This document shows positions 1,105-13,832 of a DNA stretch of 13,832 nucleotides, piece by piece; position 1 is the first letter of the stretch; each line of letters starts with the position of its first letter. This DNA is from Gemmatimonadota bacterium (GTDB lineage Bacteria > Gemmatimonadota > Gemmatimonadetes > Longimicrobiales > Gaopeijiaceae), in assembly GCA_015492755.1 (NCBI GenBank), contig WGEM01000553.1, positions 1 to 13,832 on the forward strand, given 5' to 3'. The position numbers and the translations under genes are program-made. Below the pieces are notes generated by a model. That model did not search any database and was not told where the DNA came from. It saw only the letters and a list, made by a program, of their open reading frames with translations.

Positions 1105-1112
1105 GCTTACCC
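1099..1112. repeat. Short inverted repeat carrying both convergent stop codons
   Basis: GGGTA (1099-1103), a 4-nt loop GGCT, and TACCC (1108-1112) form a perfect 5-bp stem. The TAG stop of the phosphatase gene (1102-1104) and the TAA stop of the ATPase gene (1107-1109, minus strand) both lie inside it. No T-run follows on either strand, so it is a weak candidate for a bidirectional terminator and may be chance. Confidence 0.35.
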
Positions 1113-3293
1113 GGCACGCTCCTCCGGGTCGAGGCGCGACAGCCGGAGCGCGTTGACGATGACCAGGAGCGACACACCCATGTCGCCGATGAGGACCGCC
1201 GCCACCAGCGGCACCACTCCGAAGGGAACACCCAGCGCCAGGAGCATCTTCACCCCGATGGCCACGGAGATGTTCTCCCGGATCACCGCCCTCGCCCGCG
1301 TGGAAAGCCGGCGGAGGTAGGCGAGTCGCGACAGGTCGTCTCCCATGAGGGCCACGTCCGCGGTCTCCAGCGCCGCGTCGGTTCCCGCTGCGCCCATGGC
1401 GATCCCCACCGTGGCCCGGGCCAGAGCCGGAGCATCGTTCACACCGTCGCCCACCATCGCCACGGGGCCCCAGCGCGATTCCAGCTCCTCCACCACCGCC
1501 ACCTTCTCCTCGGGAAGGAGTCCCGCCCGCACCTCATCCACGCCCACCTCTCGGGCGATGAGCCGTGCCGCCTCCGGCATATCCCCGGTGAGCATGACCA
1601 GGTGGCGGATCCCCGTGCTTCGCAGAGCCGCCAGCGCCTCCCGGGCGCCGGGGCGCAGCGTGTCCCGAAGCACCAGCCACCCCAGAAGGCGGTCGTCGGC
1701 CCGCACCTCCACGCTGGTATGGCCGGGGCGGCGTGGCACACCCGCGTCGTCACGACTTCGCCCGACCCGGATTCTCTTTCCCTCGATGGTGGCCATCGCA
1801 CCACGCCCGGGCTCGGAGACGAAGTCGGCCACGTCTGTGGGGACGGCAACGCCCTGCTCCTCCGCGTGTTCCACCACCGCGCGTGCAATGGGGTGTTCGG
1901 AGCGAGACTCCACCGCCGAGGCGAGGCGGAGTAACTCCCTCGCATCCACCCCGTGACGGGGCACCACCTCCACCACCTCCAGGTGCCCCACGGTGAGCGT
2001 GCCCGTCTTGTCCAGCGCGAGCGCCTCCACCGCCGACATGGCCTCCAGATAGACTCCCCCCTTGACCAGGACCCCGCGCCTTGCTCCGGCAGTGATCCCG
2101 CTGACGACGGCCACCGGAGTGGAGATCACCAGGGCACACGGGCATGCGATAACCAGGAGCGTCAGTCCGCGGACGAACCAGACTGTGAAGGGTGCGCCCC
2201 ACAGGAGCGGAGGACCCACGATCACCAGCACCGCCGCCAGCGTCACCATCGGTGTGTAGACCCGGGCGAACCGTTCCACGAATCGCTCCGCGCGGCTCTT
2301 TCGCTTCTCTGCTTCCGTTACGAGGCGGGCGATCCGTGCCACGGTGCTCTCACCGGCCGGGCGGTCCACACGGATCTCCAGGTAACCCTCGTGGTTGATG
2401 GAGCCGGCAAAGGCGGGGTCCCCCGGTCCGAGATCCACCGGCAGCGACTCCCCGGTGACGGGTGATTGATCCACCGCTGAAGCGCCCGTAACCACCGTGC
2501 CATCGGCGGCGATCCGCTCCCCCGGCCGGACCACGATGACATCTCCGGGCCGGAGCTCTTCCGCGGCCACCACCACCTCCTCCCCGTCCTTCAACACCCG
2601 GGCCGAGTCCGGTGCGAGCTCCATCAGGGCTTCCACCGATCGATGCGCCCGGTCCGCCGCATAGCCCTCCAGGAGCTCCGCCAGAGAGAAGAGGAAGGCG
2701 ATGGCCGCCCCTTCCATCACCTCCCCGATGGCGACGGCGCCCACGATGGCCACCGTCATGAGCACGTTCATGTCCAGGTTGCGGCGCACCGCCGCCCGAA
2801 CCCCCTTCCCGAAGAAGTTGGAGCCGCCCGCGAGGGCGGCCGCGAGGAAGAGGAAATCCGCCAGATCGTAGACGTGGAGCGGGGCCCGAACCAGCTCCAC
2901 CTCCGGGGCGACGAGCCGGGCCAGCGCGCCGGCCGCGAAGAGCGCCATGGAGAGGTACGTGCGGCGTGCCTTGCTCCCCCTCCAGATGCTCCCCCGCGCG
3001 GCGGCGCGTGCTTCCCGGCGACCCGCATCCGTGACCGCGGCGGGCACCGACGCGTATCCCAGCACTGCCAGCTCCCGGCGGACGCGCTCCGCACTCACCT
3101 CCGGCCGATGCCGCACCGCAAGCGAACGCCTGATGGGACTTCCCTCTACCTCCTCCACCCCGTCCAGGCGGGACAGGTGCGACCGGATCTTCTGGATGCA
3201 GCTCGGGCAGTCCATCTCCGGCACGCGGAGCTCCAGCGTCTGCAGCTCACCGGCGCGGTCCGGCGCCGGTGTGCGGCGCTCACTCACGGACAT
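1107..3293 (-). CDS. cadA: Heavy-metal P1B-type ATPase (ZntA/CadA family, Zn/Cd/Pb exporter)
   Basis: Inner-membrane ATP-driven exporter of cytosolic divalent soft metals, 728 residues from the ATG at 3293. In order: one HMA metal-binding domain with MDCPSC at 27-32; transmembrane helices from about 112; actuator TGES at 280-283; membrane CPC at 384-386; phosphorylation site DKTGT at 428-432; HP at 467-468; TGD at 569-571; hinge GDGVND at 615-620. Near the C-terminus, Lys682 and DMG at 704-706 match the K...DxG pair of the P1B-2 (Zn/Cd/Pb) group rather than the copper ATPases. The frame opens upstream to 3338, but that extension lies inside the sensor gene. The ATG at 3293 overlaps the upstream stop by 14 bp. 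A GTG at 3287 has GGAG 7 nt upstream (3295-3298) and is an equally good start. Transcribed with the ArsR gene, its likely repressor. Confidence 0.93.
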   Translation of the reverse strand: MSVSERRTPAPDRAGELQTLELRVPEMDCPSCIQKIRSHLSRLDGVEEVEGSPIRRSLAVRHRPEVSAERVRRELAVLGYASVPAAVTDAGRREARAAARGSIWRGSKARRTYLSMALFAAGALARLVAPEVELVRAPLHVYDLADFLFLAAALAGGSNFFGKGVRAAVRRNLDMNVLMTVAIVGAVAIGEVMEGAAIAFLFSLAELLEGYAADRAHRSVEALMELAPDSARVLKDGEEVVVAAEELRPGDVIVVRPGERIAADGTVVTGASAVDQSPVTGESLPVDLGPGDPAFAGSINHEGYLEIRVDRPAGESTVARIARLVTEAEKRKSRAERFVERFARVYTPMVTLAAVLVIVGPPLLWGAPFTVWFVRGLTLLVIACPCALVISTPVAVVSGITAGARRGVLVKGGVYLEAMSAVEALALDKTGTLTVGHLEVVEVVPRHGVDARELLRLASAVESRSEHPIARAVVEHAEEQGVAVPTDVADFVSEPGRGAMATIEGKRIRVGRSRDDAGVPRRPGHTSVEVRADDRLLGWLVLRDTLRPGAREALAALRSTGIRHLVMLTGDMPEAARLIAREVGVDEVRAGLLPEEKVAVVEELESRWGPVAMVGDGVNDAPALARATVGIAMGAAGTDAALETADVALMGDDLSRLAYLRRLSTRARAVIRENISVAIGVKMLLALGVPFGVVPLVAAVLIGDMGVSLLVIVNALRLSRLDPEERAG

Positions 3294-3726
3294 GCTCCAA
3301 CCCCACCGCGAGCAGGGTCGTCGCGTGGTCGTCCGCAAGGCGGTAGAAAACCATCCGACCCGCCTTACGGTACCGGACGAGCCCCATCTGCCGGAGCTGC
3401 CTGAGCTGATGACTCAGAGCCGACTGGCTGATCCCGGTCACCACGGCAAGATCGCACACGCACAGCTCCTCCAGAGCCAGAGCTTCCAGGATCCGCAAAC
3501 GCGTGGGGTTCGCCAGCGTCCGGAAGAGCTCCGCCAGGTCCTGGATCTCAGCGCCCCCCGCCTGCGACGCGCGCACGTGTTCCACCGCACCCCGGTGCAC
3601 CGCTTCCACCTCGCAGTGCGGGTCCGCTGTGCCGGGAGACCGGCGCGCCGTCCGACCCCGAACCGTGGGGAGTGGTGCAGTGGCAGGCGCGGACTCGGGG
3701 CTGTACTTATATGAATTACTCTTCAT
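3280..3726 (-). CDS. ArsR/SmtB-family metal-responsive repressor (CadC/SmtB-like)
   Basis: A 148-residue winged-helix repressor that should release DNA on binding Zn, Cd or Pb. The recognition region is QSALSHQLRQLRQMGLVRYRKAG (101-123; helix, then the start of the beta wing). Two metal sites are visible. The alpha3N type comprises Cys89 and Cys91 in ELCVCDL plus the N-terminal Cys38/His44 (HCEVEAVH), similar to CadC. The alpha5 type is Asp132, His134, His145 and Glu148, with the same spacing (2, 11, 3) as Asp104, His106, His117 and Glu120 of SmtB. The ATG at 3726 is the only usable start: no ATG, GTG or TTG occurs in frame before Cys38. The protein therefore has an unusual, poorly conserved 30-residue N-terminal extension. 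It overlaps the ATPase gene by 14 bp, a classic sensor-pump operon. No Shine-Dalgarno precedes it (see promoter entry). Confidence 0.93.
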   Translation of the reverse strand: MKSNSYKYSPESAPATAPLPTVRGRTARRSPGTADPHCEVEAVHRGAVEHVRASQAGGAEIQDLAELFRTLANPTRLRILEALALEELCVCDLAVVTGISQSALSHQLRQLRQMGLVRYRKAGRMVFYRLADDHATTLLAVGLEHVRE

Positions 3727-3743
3727 ATATTCATACTAATGAA
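3709..3743 (-). promoter_or_regulatory. Candidate ArsR operator: two adjacent inverted repeats over the arsR start
   Basis: An AT-rich island in GC-rich surroundings holds two perfect inverted repeats. The first is ATATGAA (3709-3715) / TTCATAT (3722-3728) with a 6-nt spacer, covering the first codons and start codon of the sensor gene. The second is TTCAT (3730-3734) / ATGAA (3739-3743) with a 4-nt spacer, covering the predicted -10 box. ArsR/SmtB-family operators are typically AT-rich imperfect repeats at the promoter of the sensor-pump operon, so autoregulation is the natural reading. The repeats are seen; protein binding is inferred. Confidence 0.7.
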
Positions 3744-3811: not shown

Positions 3812-4159
3812 TCACTCCCTCGTAGGATCTCCCTGCGGTTCAGGATCGCGGATCTTGTGCACGCTCTCCACGTTGCTGACCCAGACGAGCCCGTCCCCCC
3901 GCAGGCCGGTATGGGCACCCTGTCGGATGGCCTCGACCACCTGCGACGCCACGTCCTCTTCCGCCAGGATCTCCAGCCGGACACACTCCCGGAAGTCTGT
4001 GAGCGCCTCACGGCGAGATTCGCCGGCGTGCTCCACATGCCAGCGGTCCATTCCTGATGCGTCCAGCACCGTCATTCCCGGAAACCCCGGGATCGCCTCC
4101 AGCGCGAGCGCCACATCCTGGAGCTTCACGCGTTTGATCACCGCTCCGATGTACTTCAT
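3812..4159 (-). CDS. PII-like (GlnB-fold) signalling protein linked to RND metal efflux
   Basis: A 115-residue P-II family protein. The N-terminal strand MKYIGAVIKRVKLQDVALAL and the GMTV at 28-31 match GlnB/GlnK. The B-loop TGLRGDG (84-90) followed by VWVSNVESVHKIR (92-104) keeps the nucleotide-binding pattern, so ATP/ADP binding in a trimer is likely. The T-loop region (about 36-60) is divergent: it lacks the Tyr51 uridylylation site and instead has MDRWHVEHAG, with two His, plus Cys59. That argues against an ordinary nitrogen regulator. It fits the PII-like group described near CusA/CzcA-type heavy-metal RND pumps (PII-NG, from memory). GGAGG (4165-4169) lies 5 nt before the ATG. It is 54 bp downstream of the second RND gene with a strong hairpin between them. 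A role in tuning the pump to energy state or metal is inference. Confidence 0.85.
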   Translation of the reverse strand: MKYIGAVIKRVKLQDVALALEAIPGFPGMTVLDASGMDRWHVEHAGESRREALTDFRECVRLEILAEEDVASQVVEAIRQGAHTGLRGDGLVWVSNVESVHKIRDPEPQGDPTRE

Positions 4160-4175
4160 GTCATCCTCCGGATGG

Positions 4176-4206
4176 CGGGGCCGGGCGGTGGTGCCGCCCG
4201 GCCCCG
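4176..4206 (-). terminator. Strong GC-rich hairpin between RND pump and PII-like gene
   Basis: GGGGCCGGGCGG (4177-4188), a 5-nt loop TGGTG, and CCGCCCGGCCCC (4194-4205) form a perfect 12-bp stem, extendable to 13 bp with C4176-G4206. It occupies most of the 54-bp gap after the pump stop codon. No U-tract follows in the minus-strand transcript, so it is not a textbook intrinsic terminator. It could cause partial termination, or stabilise the 3' end of the pump mRNA, lowering expression of the downstream PII-like gene. Confidence 0.6.
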
Positions 4207-4213
4207 TTCGTTG

Positions 4214-7200
4214 TCAGGTCTCCGTCCCGTCGAACCACACATAGAAGCTGGGCAGGAGGAGGAGTGTCAGGAGGGTGGAGGTGACCACACCACCCACCAC
4301 CACTACCGCCAGCGGTCTCTGCACTTCTGAGCCGGCACCCGTGGAGAACAGAAGGGGAATCAGACCGAGGCTCGTCGACAGCGCCGTCATGAGCACCGGC
4401 CTCAGTCGAAGGTGCGCACCACGGCGGGCGGCGTCCTCCACGGACAGTCCCTCGCGCCGCCTCAGATCGATGATGTAACTCACCATGACGACGCCGTTCA
4501 GCACCGCCACGCCGAAGAGCGCGATGAACCCCACCGACGCAGGTACGGAGAGGTACTGCCCGCTCACCCAGAGGCCGACGATCCCACCGATGAGGGCGAA
4601 CGGAATGTTGAGGATGATGAGCGACGCCATACGGAGCGAGTTGAAGCTGAAGTACAGCAGAAGGAAGATGAGTCCCACGGTGATGGGCACGATGATGGAG
4701 AGACGCCGCATCGCACGACGCTGGTTCTCGAACTGTCCGCCCCACTCCAGAATGTATCCGGACGGCAGATCCACCTGACGCGCCACCGCCTCCTGGGCTT
4801 CGGCCACGAACCCCCCCATGTCCCGGCCGCGCACATTCGCCTGAACGACGATGCGGCGCTGATTGAACTCGCGACTGATCTGCTTGGGCCCGATGATTTC
4901 GGTGAGGTCCGCCACCTGGCTGAGTGGGACCGTCGCACCCGTAGGCGTGGGAATGAGAATGGCGGAGATGGCATCCAGGTTCCTCCGGTAAGGCTCCTGA
5001 AGACGCACGAAGATGTCGAAGCGTCTCTGGCCCTCGAAAACCTGGCCGGCTTCCTCCCCTCCAACCGCCACCTCCACCACTTCCAGGACGTCGTCCACGT
5101 TGAGACCGTAGCGGGCGATGGCGTCACGACGTACACGCACCTGAAGCTGAGGTTGCCCGGCAACCTGCTCCGCCTGCACATCCGCGGCCCCTGGAATCCC
5201 CTGCACCACCCGCACGATTTCGTCGGCCTTCTGCCGAAGGACATCCAGGTCGTCCCCGAAGAGCTTGATGGCCAGTTGTGCTCGAACTCCGCTCAGCAGC
5301 TCGTCCACGCGGGTGGCGATGGGCTGAGAGAAGTTGAGGAGAACACCCGGGTATTCGGAGAGGCGCTCTTCCATCGCCTCCACCAGCTCGGCCTTGGTGT
5401 CGAAGCGCCATTCGCTCGGATCGGTGAGGCCCATGTAGATCTCCACGTTGTTCACCGGTTCCGGGTCTCCACCCACCTCGGCCCGACCGACCTTCGAGAC
5501 GACCGTGGTGACTTCGTGCTCGCCGAATTCGTCGAGCACGATTCGCTCCAGCGTGTTGGCCGCCCGGATGGCTTCGTCGAGACCCGTACTGGGCGCCAGC
5601 GTCACCCTCAGCATCACCGACCCCTCTTCCAGCGCGGGCACGAACTCCGTGCCCAGGAAGGGGAAGAGTGAGAGGCTGCCAGCCAGAAGCGCCACGGCGC
5701 CCGCCGCCACCGCCTTCCGTCTGGCCAGCGCCCGGTCCAGCAGCGCCGTATACGGCCCGCGGAGCTTGCGCATGATCCACGTATCCTCCTCCGATCCCCC
5801 CCTGAGGAAGAACGAGGACAGCACCGGTATGACGGTGAGGCTGAACACGAGGGAGCCCAGCATGGCGAAGCTCATCGTGAAGGCCATGGGCTTGAAAAGC
5901 TTCCCTTCCACCCCTTCCAGCGTGAAGAGCGGGAGGAAAACCACGATGATGATGACGATGGCGAACACGATGGGGCGCCCCACCTCCTGCGCCGCGCGGA
6001 GGATGAGGTGCGCCCTGGGTTCCCTGGCCCCGTCTCCCGCCTCCCCAGCGGCTTCCGCGTGTTCCGCCTCGGAGAGGTGACGGAAGACGTTTTCGACCAT
6101 CACCACGGCGCCGTCCACCATCATCCCGATGCCGATGGCGAGCCCGCCCAGCGACATGAGGTTGGCCGACATCCCGGCGAGGTCCATGAGCCAGAATGCC
6201 AGAAGGAGAGAGAGCGGGAGACTCGCCGTGACGATGAGGGCGCTCCGTACATTCCCCAGAAAGAGGAAGAGCACCGCCACCACGAGGATGCCGCCCACCA
6301 GGAGTGCCCCCTTGACCGTGTTCACCGCCCGCTGCACAAGGTCGGCCTGGTCGTAGAAGGGCACGACACGCACGCCCTCCGGAAGGATCCGGTTGATGGC
6401 CTCCACCTTCTCCTTCACACGGTCGATCATGACGGAGGTGTTCTCGCCGATGAGCTTCAGTACGATGCCCGAGACCACCTCGCCCTTTCCGTCCTTCAGG
6501 ACCGCTCCGCGACGGATCTCGGGGCCCAGCGTCACCTCGCCCAGGTCGGCAACATAGATGGGTGTGCCCTCACCGCGCGTGTCCACGACGATGCGGCGTA
6601 TATCCTCCAGATTCTCCGTGAGACCGATGCCCCGGACGAGGTACTCTTCCGACGCACGCACGATGTAGCTTCCGCCCACATTGCGGTTGTTGCGCCGGAT
6701 CGCTTCCATGACCTCAGCGAGGGTCACGTCGTACTGGAGGAGTTTTCCGGGGTCCAGCCGCACCTGGAATTGTTTCACCTCGCCGCCGAATGAGAGCACC
6801 TCCGTGACGCCGGGGACCGTCCGGAGATTGAAGCGGACGATCCAGTCCTGAATCTCCCGCAGTTCCATGAGGCTGAGTCCCTCACCCTCCACCGTGTACT
6901 GATAGACCTGGCCCAAGCCGGTGGTGATGGGTCCCAGTGCGGGTTCGCCGAAGCCCTCGGGAATCTCCTCCCGCGCAGACTGCAGCCGCTCCAGCACGAG
7001 CTGCCGGGCGAAATAGATGTCCACGTCGTCTTCGAAATACACGAAGACCGCCGAAAGACCGAACATGGAGATGGAACGGACCTGCCGGATGCCCGGGAGG
7101 CCGTTCATCGCCACCTCCACGGGGTAGGTGACGAGCTTTTCCACCTCCTCGGGCGCCAGTCCCGGGGTCTCCGTGAAGACCTGAACGAGAACCGGCGTCA

Positions 7201-7324
7201 CGTCCGGGAAAGCGTCGATGGGAAGGCGTCGCAGGGATCTGAAGCCGACGCCCACCACAAGAATGGCGAAGATACTCACCAGCAGGCGGTTCTTCAGAGA
7301 GAACGCGATGATACGGTCGATCAC
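4214..7324 (-). CDS. Heavy-metal RND efflux pump, inner-membrane subunit (CzcA/CusA family, likely divalent-metal type)
   Basis: Proton-driven trimeric RND transporter of 1036 residues, full family length. An N-terminal transmembrane helix (about 12-28) is followed by the first periplasmic loop, TM2-6 (about 338-508), the second periplasmic loop, and TM8-12 (about 876-1030). The TM4 proton-relay motif reads AIGIGMMVDGAVVMVEN (396-412), with Asp404 and Glu411. It has DGA like divalent-metal pumps but lacks the first Asp of the CzcA DFG motif. Positions matching the E. coli CusA methionine triad are Arg573, Asn626 and Glu675 (in RVDELLSGV), so a Cu(I)/Ag(I) role is unlikely. The exact metal (Zn, Co, Ni, Cd) cannot be told. 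The GTG start at 7324 is supported by GGGGAGG (7330-7336), 5 nt upstream. It begins 12 bp after the adaptor stop, in one operon. A linker at 417-438 is rich in Glu and Ala. Confidence 0.95.
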   Translation of the reverse strand: MIDRIIAFSLKNRLLVSIFAILVVGVGFRSLRRLPIDAFPDVTPVLVQVFTETPGLAPEEVEKLVTYPVEVAMNGLPGIRQVRSISMFGLSAVFVYFEDDVDIYFARQLVLERLQSAREEIPEGFGEPALGPITTGLGQVYQYTVEGEGLSLMELREIQDWIVRFNLRTVPGVTEVLSFGGEVKQFQVRLDPGKLLQYDVTLAEVMEAIRRNNRNVGGSYIVRASEEYLVRGIGLTENLEDIRRIVVDTRGEGTPIYVADLGEVTLGPEIRRGAVLKDGKGEVVSGIVLKLIGENTSVMIDRVKEKVEAINRILPEGVRVVPFYDQADLVQRAVNTVKGALLVGGILVVAVLFLFLGNVRSALIVTASLPLSLLLAFWLMDLAGMSANLMSLGGLAIGIGMMVDGAVVMVENVFRHLSEAEHAEAAGEAGDGAREPRAHLILRAAQEVGRPIVFAIVIIIVVFLPLFTLEGVEGKLFKPMAFTMSFAMLGSLVFSLTVIPVLSSFFLRGGSEEDTWIMRKLRGPYTALLDRALARRKAVAAGAVALLAGSLSLFPFLGTEFVPALEEGSVMLRVTLAPSTGLDEAIRAANTLERIVLDEFGEHEVTTVVSKVGRAEVGGDPEPVNNVEIYMGLTDPSEWRFDTKAELVEAMEERLSEYPGVLLNFSQPIATRVDELLSGVRAQLAIKLFGDDLDVLRQKADEIVRVVQGIPGAADVQAEQVAGQPQLQVRVRRDAIARYGLNVDDVLEVVEVAVGGEEAGQVFEGQRRFDIFVRLQEPYRRNLDAISAILIPTPTGATVPLSQVADLTEIIGPKQISREFNQRRIVVQANVRGRDMGGFVAEAQEAVARQVDLPSGYILEWGGQFENQRRAMRRLSIIVPITVGLIFLLLYFSFNSLRMASLIILNIPFALIGGIVGLWVSGQYLSVPASVGFIALFGVAVLNGVVMVSYIIDLRRREGLSVEDAARRGAHLRLRPVLMTALSTSLGLIPLLFSTGAGSEVQRPLAVVVVGGVVTSTLLTLLLLPSFYVWFDGTET

Positions 7325-7336
7325 GGTGTCCTCCCC

Positions 7337-8491
7337 TTAGTGGTGGTCGCCGCCGAAGGACTCCTTCAGCAGCTCCGACTTCAGGTAAAAGGCCCCGCGA
7401 GCCACGACGGTGTCGCCGGCGGAAAGGCCGGAAAGAACGGTGAGGCGGCCGTCGGCCAGTCGCGGTCCCACAGACACCTCCCGCACCTCGAAGGTGAGCG
7501 GTTCACCGGGAACCGGGATGAACACCACGGTGCGGCCTTCCATCTGCTGGGCGGCCTCCTCGGGAATGGCCAGATCGCCACGCGGCTCGAGCCCGTGGAT
7601 GACCGCCCGCACGAACATTCCGGGACGGAGTTCCCGGTCCGGGTTCCGCACCTCCACCCTGGCCTTGACCGTACGGGTCACAGAGTCCATCACCTGGCCC
7701 AGGTACGTCAGGGTCCCAGAGAACGTCCGGTCGGGGAAGGCGGCGGTGAGGATGTCCACGTCCATCCCTTCCCGAACCCGCGCGAGATCGCGGTCGTAGA
7801 TGTCGAGGATCACCCAGAGGTTGGTGAGATCCGCCACGGTGAAGAGGTCATCCTCAGGTCCGACGATCTGTCCCGGCACCAGGTTGCGTTCCACCACCGT
7901 ACCGCTGATGGGGGCGATGACGGTGTACAGACCCCGCACCGCCGTACTGTCCTCCACATGATCCAGAGCGCCCAGCGTCCGGTGCCGGGCCAGCGCCGCT
8001 TCGTACGCCGCCTTCGCCGCCTCAAACGCGGTGCGCGCTTCCAGCATCTCCTGTCGGGAGCTGATGCCTTGCTCGTAGAGGGCGAGTTCTCGCTCGTAGG
8101 TCTCTCTGGCGAGATCCAGCTCCGCGCGCGCCTGCACGTGTGCCGCCTCGGCTTCGCCGAGTTCCGGGCTCTCCAGCACCGCCAGAGCTTCGCCGCGCGC
8201 CACCCGATCTCCCAGATCTTTCAAGATCTGGACCACCCGGCCCTCTGCACGAGGTCCCACATGGGCTACCCGGTTCAGATCGAACCCCAGCACTCCGGTG
8301 GCCTCCAGTGTCTCATTGCGAACCTCGAGCACGGCGACGCGCTCGAGCTCCACAGCGGCTGCCGCCACCGAATCGAGCGAGACCACCTCCTCGGCGTGCT
8401 CGTCCTCTTCCAACGGAGTTTCACCCACCTCCGGGCTACCGCACCCGCCGAGAGCAGGGAGGAGCACGCCCACGGCCAGAAGTGTCCTCAC
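7337..8491 (-). CDS. RND efflux periplasmic adaptor (CusB/CzcB family), lipoprotein
   Basis: Membrane-fusion protein bridging the second RND pump to an outer-membrane channel; 384 residues from the GTG at 8491. The signal is short and classic: MRTLLAVGVLLPALGG then Cys17, a lipobox LGGC, so the mature protein should be lipid-anchored in the periplasm. Lipoyl/barrel-sandwich halves lie at about 73-110 and 185-212 (APISGTVVERNLVPGQIV), separated by a helical hairpin (111-172). The beta-barrel is at about 225-300 and the membrane-proximal domain at 305-375. The C-terminus ends GGDHH. Start choice: GGAGG (8499-8503) sits 7 nt before this GTG. The open frame continues upstream, and an ATG at 8578 (413 residues, 8 bp after the channel stop) or a GTG at 8572 is possible. 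That extra stretch has less G/C at third codon positions and would make a long n-region. Confidence 0.92.
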   Translation of the reverse strand: MRTLLAVGVLLPALGGCGSPEVGETPLEEDEHAEEVVSLDSVAAAAVELERVAVLEVRNETLEATGVLGFDLNRVAHVGPRAEGRVVQILKDLGDRVARGEALAVLESPELGEAEAAHVQARAELDLARETYERELALYEQGISSRQEMLEARTAFEAAKAAYEAALARHRTLGALDHVEDSTAVRGLYTVIAPISGTVVERNLVPGQIVGPEDDLFTVADLTNLWVILDIYDRDLARVREGMDVDILTAAFPDRTFSGTLTYLGQVMDSVTRTVKARVEVRNPDRELRPGMFVRAVIHGLEPRGDLAIPEEAAQQMEGRTVVFIPVPGEPLTFEVREVSVGPRLADGRLTVLSGLSAGDTVVARGAFYLKSELLKESFGGDHH

Positions 8492-8586
8492 GGGCCGCCC
8501 TCCAGCCCTCCGAACAAGGAATCCGACGGGCGGAAGAGCCCGCATCAGTCGCAACATCATCTCTATGTACACGGTCATTCTCCCCG

Positions 8587-9874
8587 TCAGCGTTGGGAAA
8601 GGCCGGCGGAAACCGTCGCCTGGAGCCTGGTCCATTCCAGGCGACGCTCCATCCACGAGTTCCAGTAATCCAGCTCCGCATCCAGCAGCGCGTTCCGCGT
8701 CAGCAGCACGGTGGGGAGGTCCATCTTCCCCGCCCTGTACGCCTCCTCGAGCATGGGGTGACTCTCCTCCACCGGCTCGAGGACCGTTCGCCTGGCCATA
8801 CGTTCTTCCTGCGTGGCGCTGCGGTAGCGTTGCAGCGCATCCAGTACCTCGACGCGGATCCGCCACTCCAGTGCTTCACGGTTGCGCCGCGCCCGGTCCA
8901 CCTCCGCCCGCACGGCGTCCGCTTCGCCCTGGTTACGATTCCACAGGGGGATTGAGAGCCCCACCCCCACACCGATCTTCTCGCTGCCCGGGCCCTCCAG
9001 ACGGTCGAAGGGGATGCTCAGGCGCAGGTTCGGCAGCGCCTCGCGGTTCACGAGCCGCAGAAGGGATCGGTTCATCTCCACCTCCGCCGCGACACCGGCG
9101 AGATCGGGTCGCCGCTCCAGCGCCACCCGGGTGAGTGAGTCGGCGTCCAGCCCCTCCGGCTCCGGAGGGGACGCGCCCACACGCACCGCGAGGGCGGCAT
9201 CGTCGGGGAGCGCGAGTATTCGCCTGAGCTCGAGGAAGGCGGACTCGGCCTCCCGCCGCAGCTCCATGACGCGAGCCTGCGCCCTGCCCGACTCCACCCG
9301 TGCCAGGTTCTCCTCCAGGCGGCTCACCTCTCCCGCTTCCCTCATCCGTTGCGCCGCATCCATGAGTCTGAGGTTGAGCTCCATGACCTCGGTGGCCACA
9401 TCCAACTGCCGCTGCGCGGCCGCCGCACGGTAGAAGGCCTCGGCTGCCGCCTGGAGCGTGACACGCTCGGCGTCTCGGACCAGCGCGTCCGCGCGGGCGA
9501 CATCCTCTCGTGCCACCGCCCTCCGCAGTCCTCTCTGGCCGGCCCACTCCACCTCCTGGCTCACTTCGCCTTCGTAGGCCTGCAGCGTTCGTCCGGCACC
9601 CACCTGCTCGCTCTCCAGGGAGAACTCGGGATTGAAGGGGAGCACGCCCGCGGGCGACCTCGCGCAACCGGCGCTGAGCTTGCAGCTCGGGATTCCGCTC
9701 CAGCGCCATTCGCAGCGCGTCGTCGAGCGTGAGGACCAGCGAATCGGGCCGATCGCCACCCACCGCCTGTCCGGCCGCCTCTTCGGCCAGGGAGGCGAGG
9801 CCGATCCCGGCCGCGACCGTGAGACACACGAGCCGCCACCAAGCTGCGCGACTCAACAGAAAGCTTCGTTGCAT
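8587..9874 (-). pseudogene. Outer-membrane efflux channel (TolC/CzcC family), frameshifted
   Basis: Outer-membrane exit duct for RND pumps. The N-terminal part is read in one frame from an ATG at 9874 (GAGGG 6 nt upstream): a signal peptide (MQRSFLLSRAAWWRLVCLTVAAG..., likely cut near EEAAGQ) and the canonical start of the first OEP repeat, LTLDDALRMALERNPEL (48-64). The rest continues in a different frame from about 9645 (VLPFNPEFSLESEQ) to the stop at 8587. It includes both coiled-coil repeats and a typical C-terminus (LLDAELDYWNSWMERRLEWTRLQ). The switch falls within 9646-9680. The joining segment is shorter than in relatives as I recall them, so a deletion of about 17 nt (or one extra base) is likely. 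No slippery site is visible. Either the gene is broken or the assembly has an error; the fused product would be about 428 residues. It stops 8 bp before the possible ATG of the adaptor. Confidence 0.82.
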
Positions 9875-9914
9875 GACCATCCCTCGAGGCATGGAGAAAC
9901 ACCGGAACCCGGTC

Positions 9915-9993: not shown

Positions 9994-10464
9994 TCAGCCT
10001 CGAGGAGGGGTGCGGAGCGGCGGGGTCACGTGCTCGGAAGGTTCGAGCGCCGTACGGACACGGTGGCGTGTGACTTCCCTCCGGAACTCCAGCCCGGACG
10101 CGGGGACCACGGCGGGTCCGTGGGCGTGCGAGCAGTGATCCGGGCCTCGCACGTGCGTGTGCCCCGGCATGTCTTCCCGGGAACCGTGCGACGCACCGTC
10201 CTCGTGGGAGGCACCGTCGTCGGACGGGTGTCCGTCGGGATGCGTGCAGAGGAGTTCCACCGGCTCCGTGGCGTGCGGCGTCCGGCCCGTGACCGGGTGG
10301 ACGGTGCACTCCGCGTGCTGTTGCAGCTCGGAGATGGACGCAAGCGCATCCTCGGCGGCCCCGGCGGTGAGTACCGCCAGGGCCCCCAGGGTCAGAAGCC
10401 TCCGGGAGGCGCCGCGCCGTGTGAGCCGGGGTGGGAACATGGTCCGAAAGCTACCCGAACTCAT
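9994..10464 (-). CDS. Small secreted His/Cys-rich protein in the copper-efflux operon
   Basis: A predicted 156-residue exported protein of no family I can name. The n-region is Arg-rich, the hydrophobic core is LLTLGALAVLTAGAA (23-37), and cleavage is likely after ALA at 40-42. The mature part of about 114 residues holds about 14 His and three Cys (53, 73, 111), clustered in CTVHP, CTHPDGH, SHEDGASHG and GHTHVRGPDHCSHAHG. This suggests periplasmic metal binding. The C-terminus is Pro/Arg-rich (VTPPLRTPPRG). Small His-rich preproteins of this style occur beside RND metal pumps (from memory). The ATG at 10464 begins 7 bp after the pump stop; there is no strong Shine-Dalgarno, so coupling is likely. 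An ATG at 10440 would give a tighter signal peptide and is a fair alternative. Function as a copper-binding or buffering protein is inference. Confidence 0.62.
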   Translation of the reverse strand: MSSGSFRTMFPPRLTRRGASRRLLTLGALAVLTAGAAEDALASISELQQHAECTVHPVTGRTPHATEPVELLCTHPDGHPSDDGASHEDGASHGSREDMPGHTHVRGPDHCSHAHGPAVVPASGLEFRREVTRHRVRTALEPSEHVTPPLRTPPRG

Positions 10465-10471
10465 TCGCAAC

Positions 10472-13400
10472 TCAACCCACCCGCCTCACCTCCCACTCCT
10501 TCCAGAGCGAGTAGGCGGCGGGGATGACCAGGAGGGTGAGTACGGTGGACGACAACATGCCGCCCACCATGGGCGCCGCGATACGCTTCATCACGTCCGC
10601 ACCCGGTCCGTGCGCCCACAGGATGGGGAGGAGGCCCGCGGTGATGGCCGTCACCGTCATCATCTTCGGGCGCACCCGCTCCACCGCTCCGTACTCCACC
10701 GCCGCGTCCACATCCGCCCGCCCGCGCATCATGCCACGCTCCTTCCGGTGGCGGTAAGCCTGATCGAGATAGATGAGCATGATCACCCCCGTTTCGGCGG
10801 CGACGCCGGCCAGCGCGATGAACCCGATGGCCGTGGCCACACTCAGGTGATATCCCAGGAACCACATCAGCCACACGCCACCCACCAGCGAGAACGGCAG
10901 TGCAGCCATGATGAGGGAGGTCTCCATCAGGCTACCGAACTGCAGGTACAGGAGGAGGAAGATGATCCCGATGGTGACGGGGACCACGTAGGTGAGGCGT
11001 GCCTTGGCACGCTCCATCGCCTCGAACTGCCCGGACCAGACGAGCCGGTAGCCCGGCGGCATGGGCACCCTCCGCTCCACCTCAGCGGCGGCCTCCCGCA
11101 CATACGAGCCGATGTCCCTGCCGCGAACATCGACGTAAACCAGGTTCACCAGCTCGGCATTCTCCGACTTGATCATGGGAGGGCCCTGCATCGCCCGGAC
11201 CCGAGCAACCTCCCCGAGTCGGATGTGCGCGCCGGTTCTGGTGGGCACGCGGACAGCCGAGATGCGATCGGGGCGGTTGCGGAGTTCCCGCGGATAGCGC
11301 ACCAGCACGCCGTATCGCTCCCGCCCCTCGATGACCTCGCCCGCCGGCATGCCGCCCACCGCCGCGCTGAACGCACGCTGGACGTCGCCTACCGTCAGGC
11401 CGTGCCGCGCCGCGGCGTGTCGGTCGACATCCACGTCGAGGTATCGGCCACCCATGACCCGCTCCGCAAACACCGAATTGGTCCCCGGAACCGACGCGAG
11501 CGCCTCTTCCAACGCGCGCCCCAGAGAATCCAGGACGGCGAGTTCCGGCCCGAACACCTTGATCCCCACCGGCGTCTTGATCCCCGTGGCCAGCATGTCG
11601 AGACGGTTCTTGATGGGCATGGACCACATGTTCGCCACGCCCGGGGTTCGGACCCGTGCATTGAACTCGGCCACGATGGAGTCATAGGTCACGCCCGGTC
11701 GCCACTCCTCCTCCGGCTTCAGGATCGCGATGGATTCGATCATGGCCATGGGCGCCATATCCGTGGCACTCTCCGCCCGACCGATCTTGCCGAGCACGGT
11801 GGCCACCTCCGGAACCGCAGCCATCGCGGCGTCCCGCTGCACGAGGATGGCCTTCGCCTGGGCCGTCCCGATGGCCGGCTGGAAGGACGGCATGTCCATG
11901 ATGGAGCCCTCGTTGAGCGGCGGCATGAACTCACTCCCCAGATGCCGCCACGGGTACACGGTCGCCAGGAGAACAGCGGCCGCGATGGCGAGCGTCCACC
12001 AACGGTGGCGGAGCACGAGATGGATCATCGGTCGATAGACTGCCATCATGACGCGATTGAGCGGATTCTCGGATTCGGAGCGGACGCCGCGCCGGATGAA
12101 GATCCCCATGAGGACCGGAACCAAGGTGATGGAGAGGAGCGCCGCCGCAGCCATGGAGAGCGTCTTGGTCCACGCCAGCGGCTTGAAGAGCCGCCCTTCC
12201 TGCGCCTCCAGGGCAAAAACGGGGAGGAAGGAGAGCGTGATGAGCAGAAGCGACGTGAAGAGCGCGGGCCCCACCTCGGAGGCCGAACGCACCACCAGCT
12301 CCCAGTGGCGGGTCGCATCCCCGGGTCTCCCCTCACGCTCCATGTGCTTGTGAAGATTCTCCACCATCACGATGGCCGCGTCGATCATCGCACCGATGGC
12401 GATGGCGATGCCCCCCAGGCTCATGATGTTGGCACCGAGACCCAGGTACCGCATGGCGAGGAACGCCATGAGAATGCCCACGGGGAGGGTGAGGATCGCC
12501 ACCAGCGCGCTCCGGGCGTGGAGGAGGAAGAGGAGCGTCACCAGTGCCACGATGAGCGACTCCTCCAGGAGCTTCTCCCGGAGTGTACGGATGGCCCCAC
12601 GGATGAGGTGGGAACGATCATAGCCCACCACGAAACGAACGCCCTCCGGAAGCGCGGACTCCAGCTCACGCATGCGATCCGTCACGCGCTCGATGACCTC
12701 CAGAGGATTCTCTCCATAACGCATCACCACGAACCCCGTCACCACCTCACCACGACCGTCCAGATCCGCGATACCACGGCGGATCTCGGGCCCGAACCGG
12801 ATCTCGGCCACATCACGAACGCGTACGGGTGTACCGTCGGGACCGACGGAAACGGGAACCTCGGCCACGTCGTCGAGGCCTTCGAACCGTCCCTGACTCC
12901 GCACCATGAACTCGCTGCCTCCGAGTTCCAGCACGCGCCCACCGACGTCCTGGTTGGAGCTCCGCAGGGCGCGCCACACCTGGTCCACGGAAACTCCGTG
13001 GGCCAGGAGCCGCTCGGGGTCCACCACCACCTGATACTGCCGCTGTACGCCGCCCAACGTGGCGATCTCCGCCACACCGGGGACCGCGGTGAGGCCCGGC
13101 TTCACCGTCCAGTCCTGGAGACTGCGTAGTTCGGCCAGGTCGAGGCGGCCGGTGGTGTCGGCCAGGATGTACTGCAGCACCCAACCCACGCCGGTGGCGT
13201 CCGGCCCCAGAGCGGTGCGGGCGCCCTCGGGGAGCTTGTCACGGATGCTGTTCAGGTACTCCAGCACACGGCTGCGCGCCCAGTACAGATCCGTCCCGTC
13301 GTCGAAGACCACGTACACGGCGGACAGTCCGAACTGGCTCACCCCCCGGACCCAGCGCGTGCCCGGAACTTTCAGCATTTCCGTGGAGAGCGGGTACGTC

Positions 13401-13594
13401 ACCTGGTCCTCCACCAGGTCCGGCGACTGCCCCGGCCACTCGGTCATGACGATCACCTGGATGTCCGAAAGGTCGGGGATGGCGTCGACAGGCGTTCGCA
13501 GCATCGCCCAGCTGCCGCCCAGGGACAGCGCCAACGTGGCCAGAAGGACGAGGAACCGATTCCGGACCGACCAGGCGATGATTCGCGTCTGCAT
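10472..13594 (-). CDS. cusA: Copper/silver RND efflux pump CusA
   Basis: Inner-membrane Cu(I)/Ag(I) exporter of the HME-RND family, 1040 residues. The periplasmic methionine triad of E. coli CusA (Met573, 623, 672) is present as Met568 (MDMPS), Met618 (MAMIES) and Met667 (RLDMLATGIK). Membrane methionines equivalent to the E. coli relay pairs are also present: Met391, 403, 410, 481, 496 and 1009. TM4 reads AIAIGAMIDAAIVMVEN (397-413), the DAA form typical of monovalent-metal pumps, with Asp405 and Glu412. Additional Met residues (566, 613, 616, 656, 659) line the same region. The open frame extends upstream to 13708, but the ATG at 13594 is chosen. It has GGGGAGG (13602-13608) 7 nt upstream, and the protein then starts MQTRIIAWSVRNR as in the family. 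It lies 4 bp after the adaptor stop, so the two are translated together. Confidence 0.97.
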   Translation of the reverse strand: MQTRIIAWSVRNRFLVLLATLALSLGGSWAMLRTPVDAIPDLSDIQVIVMTEWPGQSPDLVEDQVTYPLSTEMLKVPGTRWVRGVSQFGLSAVYVVFDDGTDLYWARSRVLEYLNSIRDKLPEGARTALGPDATGVGWVLQYILADTTGRLDLAELRSLQDWTVKPGLTAVPGVAEIATLGGVQRQYQVVVDPERLLAHGVSVDQVWRALRSSNQDVGGRVLELGGSEFMVRSQGRFEGLDDVAEVPVSVGPDGTPVRVRDVAEIRFGPEIRRGIADLDGRGEVVTGFVVMRYGENPLEVIERVTDRMRELESALPEGVRFVVGYDRSHLIRGAIRTLREKLLEESLIVALVTLLFLLHARSALVAILTLPVGILMAFLAMRYLGLGANIMSLGGIAIAIGAMIDAAIVMVENLHKHMEREGRPGDATRHWELVVRSASEVGPALFTSLLLITLSFLPVFALEAQEGRLFKPLAWTKTLSMAAAALLSITLVPVLMGIFIRRGVRSESENPLNRVMMAVYRPMIHLVLRHRWWTLAIAAAVLLATVYPWRHLGSEFMPPLNEGSIMDMPSFQPAIGTAQAKAILVQRDAAMAAVPEVATVLGKIGRAESATDMAPMAMIESIAILKPEEEWRPGVTYDSIVAEFNARVRTPGVANMWSMPIKNRLDMLATGIKTPVGIKVFGPELAVLDSLGRALEEALASVPGTNSVFAERVMGGRYLDVDVDRHAAARHGLTVGDVQRAFSAAVGGMPAGEVIEGRERYGVLVRYPRELRNRPDRISAVRVPTRTGAHIRLGEVARVRAMQGPPMIKSENAELVNLVYVDVRGRDIGSYVREAAAEVERRVPMPPGYRLVWSGQFEAMERAKARLTYVVPVTIGIIFLLLYLQFGSLMETSLIMAALPFSLVGGVWLMWFLGYHLSVATAIGFIALAGVAAETGVIMLIYLDQAYRHRKERGMMRGRADVDAAVEYGAVERVRPKMMTVTAITAGLLPILWAHGPGADVMKRIAAPMVGGMLSSTVLTLLVIPAAYSLWKEWEVRRVG

Positions 13595-13598
13595 GGTC

Positions 13599-13832
13599 CT
13601 ACCTCCCCTGCCCGGTGGCGTGAGAGGAGTCTGCCGCGGAGGTCCCGTCCATCTCCATGTCCATGCCGCGCATGTCCATGCCACCCATGTCCATGCCACC
13701 CATGTCACCCGCGCCCATCATGCTCATCATGCTCCGCATGACGGCGCCGATGTTGGCCTCTGCATCGATGAGATACTGGGCGGATGTGACCACCCTGTCC
13801 CCCACCTCCAACCCGTCCAGGATCCCGGCACA
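13599..13832 (-). CDS. cusB: CusB-type RND adaptor, C-terminal fragment with Met-rich tail
   Basis: The gene runs off the right edge; 77 residues are visible. LDGLEVGDRVVTSAQYLIDAEANIG matches the end of the membrane-proximal domain of CusB/CzcB adaptors, where 'l..GL..Ge.VV.sg.FLid.E' is standard. After it comes a tail with 13 Met in about 30 residues, including GGMDMGGMDMRGMDMEMD, then a Ser/Gly-rich end. Most adaptors stop soon after the FLID-SE motif. Clustered thioether residues suit Cu(I)/Ag(I) and agree with the adjoining CusA. The tail may collect or hand over copper in the periplasm (inference). The stop codon TAG (13599-13601) lies between the Shine-Dalgarno and the start codon of cusA. 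Confidence 0.9.
   Translation of the reverse strand, partial: CAGILDGLEVGDRVVTSAQYLIDAEANIGAVMRSMMSMMGAGDMGGMDMGGMDMRGMDMEMDGTSAADSSHATGQGR
13656..13706 (-). repeat. 15-bp tandem repeat encoding GGMDM/RGMDM pentapeptides
   Basis: Three full units, CATGTCCATGCCGCG, then CATGTCCATGCCACC twice, followed by a partial CATGTC. Units 2 and 3 are identical and unit 1 differs at two bases. In the adaptor frame (minus strand) they give repeated (G/R)GMDM pentapeptides. The near identity suggests recent expansion by slippage, so copy number may vary among strains. Confidence 0.85.

Follow-up and report, generated by a model that had tools for sequence, protein, structure and literature searches.

A divergent PII-NG-type protein encoded behind a heavy-metal RND pump in Gemmatimonadota and its possible docking on the pump

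What might a PII-type protein do in a metal efflux operon, and on which partner would it act? The question is raised by the window, i.e., the whole stretch of 13,832 nucleotides analyzed here, which is contig 553 of the draft genome of a Gemmatimonadota bacterium (2.96 Mb, 82% complete). On its minus strand, the genes run in the order outer-membrane factor, periplasmic adaptor, CusA/CzcA-family RND pump, PII-type protein, ArsR, and Cd/Zn-type P1B-ATPase. The PII-type gene (3812..4159, minus strand) codes for 115 residues; 54 nt separate its start from the end of the preceding pump gene (4214..7324, minus strand, stop codon included), whose product of 1036 residues, the predicted partner, is a heavy-metal RND protein (PF00873, 1009.3 bits; TIGR00914, 1184.6 bits).

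The other genes of the locus are all on the minus strand. The adaptor (7337..8866; HlyD_D23) has the CzcB/NccB family as its best NCBIfam match, below the cut-off of that family, and its true start is probably inside the open reading frame because Pfam recognizes the protein only from residue 184 onward. The TolC-type outer-membrane factor (8587..9892) has its N-terminal and main parts in two frames, with a switch near 9620-9651 that reflects either a frameshift or an assembly error. On the other side lie the ArsR/SmtB-family metalloregulator (3280..3726; NF033788, 98.8 bits for a cut-off of 55), with an 8-bp inverted repeat, TATATGAA-6-TTCATATA, at the start of its reading frame (3708..3729) that looks like an operator and may function as one, and the P1B-ATPase (1107..3338), with an N-terminal HMA domain and scores above the cut-offs of TIGR01512 and TIGR01525. 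The window also contains a second CusA/CzcA-family RND gene (10472-13603), and the next reading frame on the strand of that gene (9997-10470) codes for a His-rich, probably exported protein without a Pfam match, which is not a PII protein.

Between the pump and PII genes, the mRNA contains a perfect 13-bp inverted repeat with a 5-nt loop (4176..4206, minus strand); the 63-nt region 4157-4219 has a predicted folding energy of -38.6 kcal/mol (z -5.6). The ribosome-binding region of the PII gene lies in a second, small stem within the same region, beside the stable hairpin. As no T-run follows the hairpin, a role in mRNA processing or in setting the dose of the PII-type protein is more likely than transcription termination.

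The protein belongs to the PII family, both by its PF00543 domain, the only one listed for it (no PF11582 match at E values up to 0.01), and by its predicted fold. With regard to SbtB and CutA, the fold and sequence matches listed, which are capped in number, were PII proteins, and no CutA or SbtB row was among those of one of these comparisons. The initial description, a PII-like protein akin to PII-NG in a metal efflux operon, was borne out. A tree was built from 126 rows (121 of them different); it rests on few columns and has several long branches, that of the window protein among them. In it, a single branch (SH-aLRT 98) separates 67 canonical PII proteins, i.e., those with the YRG motif and no RND gene upstream, from 59 pump-linked proteins. 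The window protein groups with proteobacterial PII-NG proteins such as those of Zoogloea.

An ordinary nitrogen-signaling PII protein that came to lie beside a pump by chance would have the same fold and Pfam family, and canonical GlnB and GlnK also resemble the window protein in overall length. However, the window protein falls outside the canonical group, as the sequence-only reading had expected, and it scores far below the NCBIfam equivalog cut-offs for GlnB/GlnK (57.2 bits for a cut-off of 202, 46.3 for 181). It lacks the YRG feature of the T-loop, with its Tyr51, as well as Lys58 and Lys90, both of which are typical of GlnB/GlnK. No glnA or amtB gene was found among the window proteins scanned. 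We therefore regard a misplaced nitrogen regulator as most improbable. From these sequence features we assign the protein to the PII-NG type rather than to GlnB/GlnK, and the gene to a new, divergent PII-NG member outside the Proteobacteria. PII-NG, which is known through its genome context, has been described as a proteobacterial clade in a study (PMC7726332) that cites Sant'Anna 2009 for its linkage to CzcABC. The window protein shares with PII-NG (GSU2134) a PF00543 domain outside GlnB/GlnK and the linkage to CzcABC-type RND genes, but it is found in Gemmatimonadota and has Cys at the position of Lys58 and Leu at that of Lys90.

Residue conservation bears on the possible ligand. The B-loop (TGLRGDG, followed by Leu) keeps its GDG, whereas other residues stand in place of Gln39, Lys58, and Lys90, which makes sensing of 2-oxoglutarate unlikely. 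Rather than a sensor of ATP and 2-oxoglutarate, the pattern suggests a protein that binds a ligand resembling AMP or ADP, or one whose role is purely structural. The proposal that an intact nucleotide site reports the ATP/ADP state is doubtful given the replaced Lys58 and Lys90. A second proposal, that His41 and His44 of the T-loop (GMDRWHVEHAGESRREALTDF) and the downstream Cys59 serve to sense metal, found no support at the level of the group. The T-loop region has on average 1.38 His and Cys residues in 34 RND1-linked PII-NG proteins versus 1.35 in 66 canonical proteins. His41 is common to 32 of 121 database relatives; Cys59, which replaces Lys58, occurs in 2 of the 121 and in none of the other 33 pump-linked proteins.

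The gene neighborhood of PII-type proteins was then compared across genomes. Using the window protein or a PII-NG alignment as a query, we collected 99 distinct PII-family proteins (loci L001 to L109). An RND gene lies directly upstream of 28 proteins, all without YRG, versus none of the 66 proteins with YRG (two of which are near a contig edge), confirming that the RND linkage is conserved in relatives. Five proteins have neither YRG nor an RND gene. One of them is cut at its 5' end and adjoins an apparent transposase reading frame identified by eye (L015), one is a second, spurious match (L053), and two have YRAS and on visual inspection resemble canonical proteins (L017 and L070), which leaves L069 as a true exception.

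We also sampled CzcA-type pumps by pump similarity, without regard to PII genes. The query pumps were themselves PII-linked, and the sample covers part of two pump lists: 30 loci from each and a further 26 and 54 stretches, with several genes located at contig ends excluded. The following counts should therefore not be read as prevalences among CzcA pumps at large. For the class to which Zoogloea belongs, Gammaproteobacteria in GTDB, 63 of 83 CzcA-type genes (27/29 and 36/54) are followed directly by a PII, DUF3240, or HRNR-type gene, the last being a name coined here. In Gemmatimonadota, 9 of 53 (9/28 and 0/25) have a gene of the PII superfamily directly downstream. The two reading frames overlap by 4 nt in 32 of 83 pump-PII pairs.

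This linkage suggests the pump as partner. We propose, giving the model an even chance of being right, that three copies of the window protein together bind its CzcA-type pump from the cytosol and tune the export of metal in response to a small ligand that they carry. RND pumps are trimers. We infer the trimeric state of the window protein from its fold family; the contact and the ligand are likewise predictions, as is the direction of regulation, which by precedent would be inhibition. In this model, the PII-NG trimer would sit on the cytosolic face of the pump trimer and modulate export much as GlnK acts on AmtB and SbtB on SbtA. The comparison with these systems is one of working principle: in them, a small PII-fold protein is encoded beside a trimeric transporter (glnK-amtB; PMC10710835) or acts on one. 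In contrast, the transporter of the window is a heavy-metal RND pump, the length of the T-loop is not conserved, and the contact is predicted. As the T-loop, whose sequence is also highly variable, ranges from 13 to 47 residues in the PII-NG group versus 21 in all 66 canonical proteins, it need not be the plug; this variability weighs against the model. The sequence-only reading had modeled docking on GlnK and AmtB; an AmtB-GlnK-type insertion of the T-loop is thus not favored, while the cytosolic face gains indirect support from the rate comparison given below.

A regulator of the neighboring P1B-ATPase would account for the order RND-PII-P1B-ATPase, which is common in the phylum of the window, with an ATPase gene in 12 of 14 loci checked. 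However, none was found in the seven proteobacterial PII-NG loci checked (9-16 kb each), and some pumps of the phylum that lack PII run straight into the ATPase gene. The RND pump is therefore the steadier neighbor of PII-NG, and the ATPase, which is not a constant one, was rejected as partner; we consider its regulation by the window protein quite unlikely.

Alternatively, the protein might be a soluble sensor of metal or a metabolite that controls how strongly the efflux operon is expressed, for instance through ArsR, and that has nothing but the operon in common with the pump. The adjacent arsR gene and the frequency of His41 among relatives are in line with such a role. So is a precedent in Geobacter sulfurreducens, where GSU2134-2137 are induced by cobalt and GSU2134, upregulated together with czcABC, has been proposed to be a metal sensor (PMC7726332). 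Against it, His and Cys are not enriched in the T-loops, an ArsR match is present in only some annotated loci of the phylum, the pump being the usual neighbor, and a soluble sensor leaves slower evolution of the cytosolic loops of the pumps (see below) unexplained. We hold this explanation to be unlikely, albeit to be kept in mind.

Finally, the gene might be the decaying relic of a lost regulatory pairing, retained by chance. Its presence in the phylum is patchy, no relative exceeds 50% identity among the matches listed (120 of 4636 in one search), and the outer-membrane factor gene of the operon appears frameshifted. However, the reading frame is open, the fold-defining Gly and the GDG residues are retained across the PII-NG group, and the arrangement recurs in many genomes, which make a relic improbable. 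The pump of locus L115 is 93% identical, outside the cytosolic loops, to the PII-linked pump of L182 and yet has no PII gene, suggesting that the PII partner is dispensable and would be a modulator rather than a structural subunit.

Returning to the docked trimer, we asked which PII-type proteins accompany CzcA-type pumps. Three classes are found directly 3' of such pump genes, PII-NG, HRNR with a degenerate B-loop, and DUF3240 (PF11582); the class labels come from profiles and patterns of this analysis, as do the names RND1 and RND2 for CzcA- and CusA-type pumps. When 73 pumps were arranged in a tree, those with DUF3240 (13 pumps) and those with HRNR (10 pumps) each occupied one side of a branch with a support of 100, and pumps with PII-NG and those with no such gene were intermixed. 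Presence versus absence of PII requires nine changes on the pump tree and is therefore not fixed by clade. DUF3240 is like PII-NG in being encoded directly 3' of CzcA-type pumps; it has no recognizable B-loop, unlike the window protein, which in turn is not recognized by the DUF3240 profile. One DUF3240 protein is recognized by PF11582 (47.6 bits) as well as by PF00543 (32.2 bits), so this family grades into PII, and a solved member (PDB 3ce8) is labeled 'putative PII-like'. A further PII-type class lies behind CusA-type pumps, also in the genome of the window (L002/L171). Judged by gene context and profiles, the presence of PII-type genes behind many CzcA-type pumps in distinct classes, DUF3240 included, with two classes that follow pump clades, is new with respect to the openly licensed literature searched.

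Docking of a PII-type protein would constrain the cytosolic face of the pump, which is hence expected to be more conserved in pumps that have such a gene. For close pump pairs, we divided the divergence of the seven cytosolic segments by the divergence of the rest of the protein, i.e., its membrane and periplasmic parts. Pairs were chosen greedily, without overlap, at 5-40% divergence. Identical pumps, pumps shorter than 950 residues, and pumps without a PII-type gene that had less than 300 nt of downstream sequence were excluded. Segment borders were set by hydrophobicity, and the effect survives shifting them by 3 residues either way. In the final set of 160 pumps (87 with and 73 without a PII-type gene), the ratio was 1.29 with the gene (39 pairs) versus 1.84 without it (33 pairs; p 3.6e-6). 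The difference was seen within the phylum of the window (1.44 versus 1.84; 9 versus 24 pairs; p 0.011) and within the gamma group (1.25 versus 1.90; 30 versus 8 pairs; p 0.0013).

Controls were run on a first, smaller set, in which the ratios were 1.28 with (36 pairs) versus 1.81 without (29 pairs; p 2.8e-5). The short periplasmic loops gave 0.40 in both groups, and none of 500 random sets of blocks from the periplasmic domains produced as large a difference. The membrane part evolved at 0.76 of the rest with a PII-type gene versus 0.83 without, a slight difference. The result was robust to removal of single segments, to the divergence range, and to normalization by the membrane or the periplasmic part (p 5.8e-7 to 0.0036), normalization by the membrane part giving the weakest effect (p 0.0036). 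Taken singly, six of the seven segments differed at p <0.05, TM8-9 giving p 0.09; the strongest were the C-terminus (0.36 with versus 1.28 without) and the TM10-11 loop (1.15 versus 1.96). By class, compared with 1.81 without a gene, the ratios were 1.43 for PII (p 0.0077), 1.23 for DUF3240 (p 4.7e-5), and 1.35 for HRNR (p 0.071); three gamma loci counted as PII (L217, L221, and L267) read HRNR-like, which affects the class counts and the PII-only value but not the comparison with versus without.

Triplets of pumps were scored for faster cytosolic change where the PII gene is absent. The trend was not significant, neither in the first data (7 of 11, p 0.087) nor in an enlarged sample (7 of 13, odds ratio 1.15, p 0.15), and pump clades may therefore simply differ in this rate. 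The slower relative evolution of the cytosolic loops in pumps with a PII-type gene is indirect evidence that the partner docks there.

More broadly, PII-fold proteins may cap CzcA-type RND metal pumps in general on their cytoplasmic side. This would be an ancient three-on-three partnership, with its own PII class for each pump clade, from nucleotide-competent PII-NG to DUF3240 without a B-loop, and would add RND pumps to the transporter families that PII proteins control. We put this generalization forward tentatively, as somewhat short of an even bet. In the part of a 2023 review that we drew on (PMC10710835), PII-controlled transporters appear restricted to those able to act as trimers, no RND pump is among them, and the RND modulators named, AcrZ, YajC, and WatS1, include no PII protein. 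Similarly limited, the openly licensed literature searched yielded no report of contact between PII and RND pumps, of classes that follow pump clades, of DUF3240 as a partner of the same kind, or of slower cytosolic loops. A DUF3240 protein of Helicobacter pylori encoded near Co-Zn-Cd resistance genes has been proposed to be a toxin-antitoxin partner (PMC8935386). If PII-type proteins do cap metal RND pumps, a cytosolic signal would set the activity of these pumps once they have been made, a function could be given to pump neighbors that are now annotated 'nitrogen regulator' or DUF3240, and a new pump family would join those under known PII-type regulation.

Other PII-like genes were seen in the genome of the window. 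That at 12195-12560 of L171, behind the CusA-type pump, codes for CTGxxGDGV in its B-loop region. At 5866-6171 of L170, a third RND gene ends within the first bases of a PII-like reading frame (PF00543, 23 bits for a cut-off of 25), with a 4-nt overlap at its stop codon; among NCBIfam models, this RND gene scores best with a multidrug RND family, although below the threshold. A weakly PII-like protein (101-472 of L172) adjoins a reading frame that by eye resembles PTS EIIA. Elsewhere, PII domains occur in open frames of approximately 610-700 residues (L025, L038, L039, L042, and others), perhaps Amt-PII fusions. Gene order varies as well, which counts against the docking model. On a plasmid of Candidatus Manganitrophus (L270, CP114558.1), the PII gene precedes an RND gene whose match is split up. 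On a conjugative plasmid of Cupriavidus oxalaticus (L272, NZ_CP032520.1), it is divergent from an operon for outer-membrane factor, adaptor, and RND pump, and in L175 PII genes flank both sides, in the order PII, adaptor, RND, PII.
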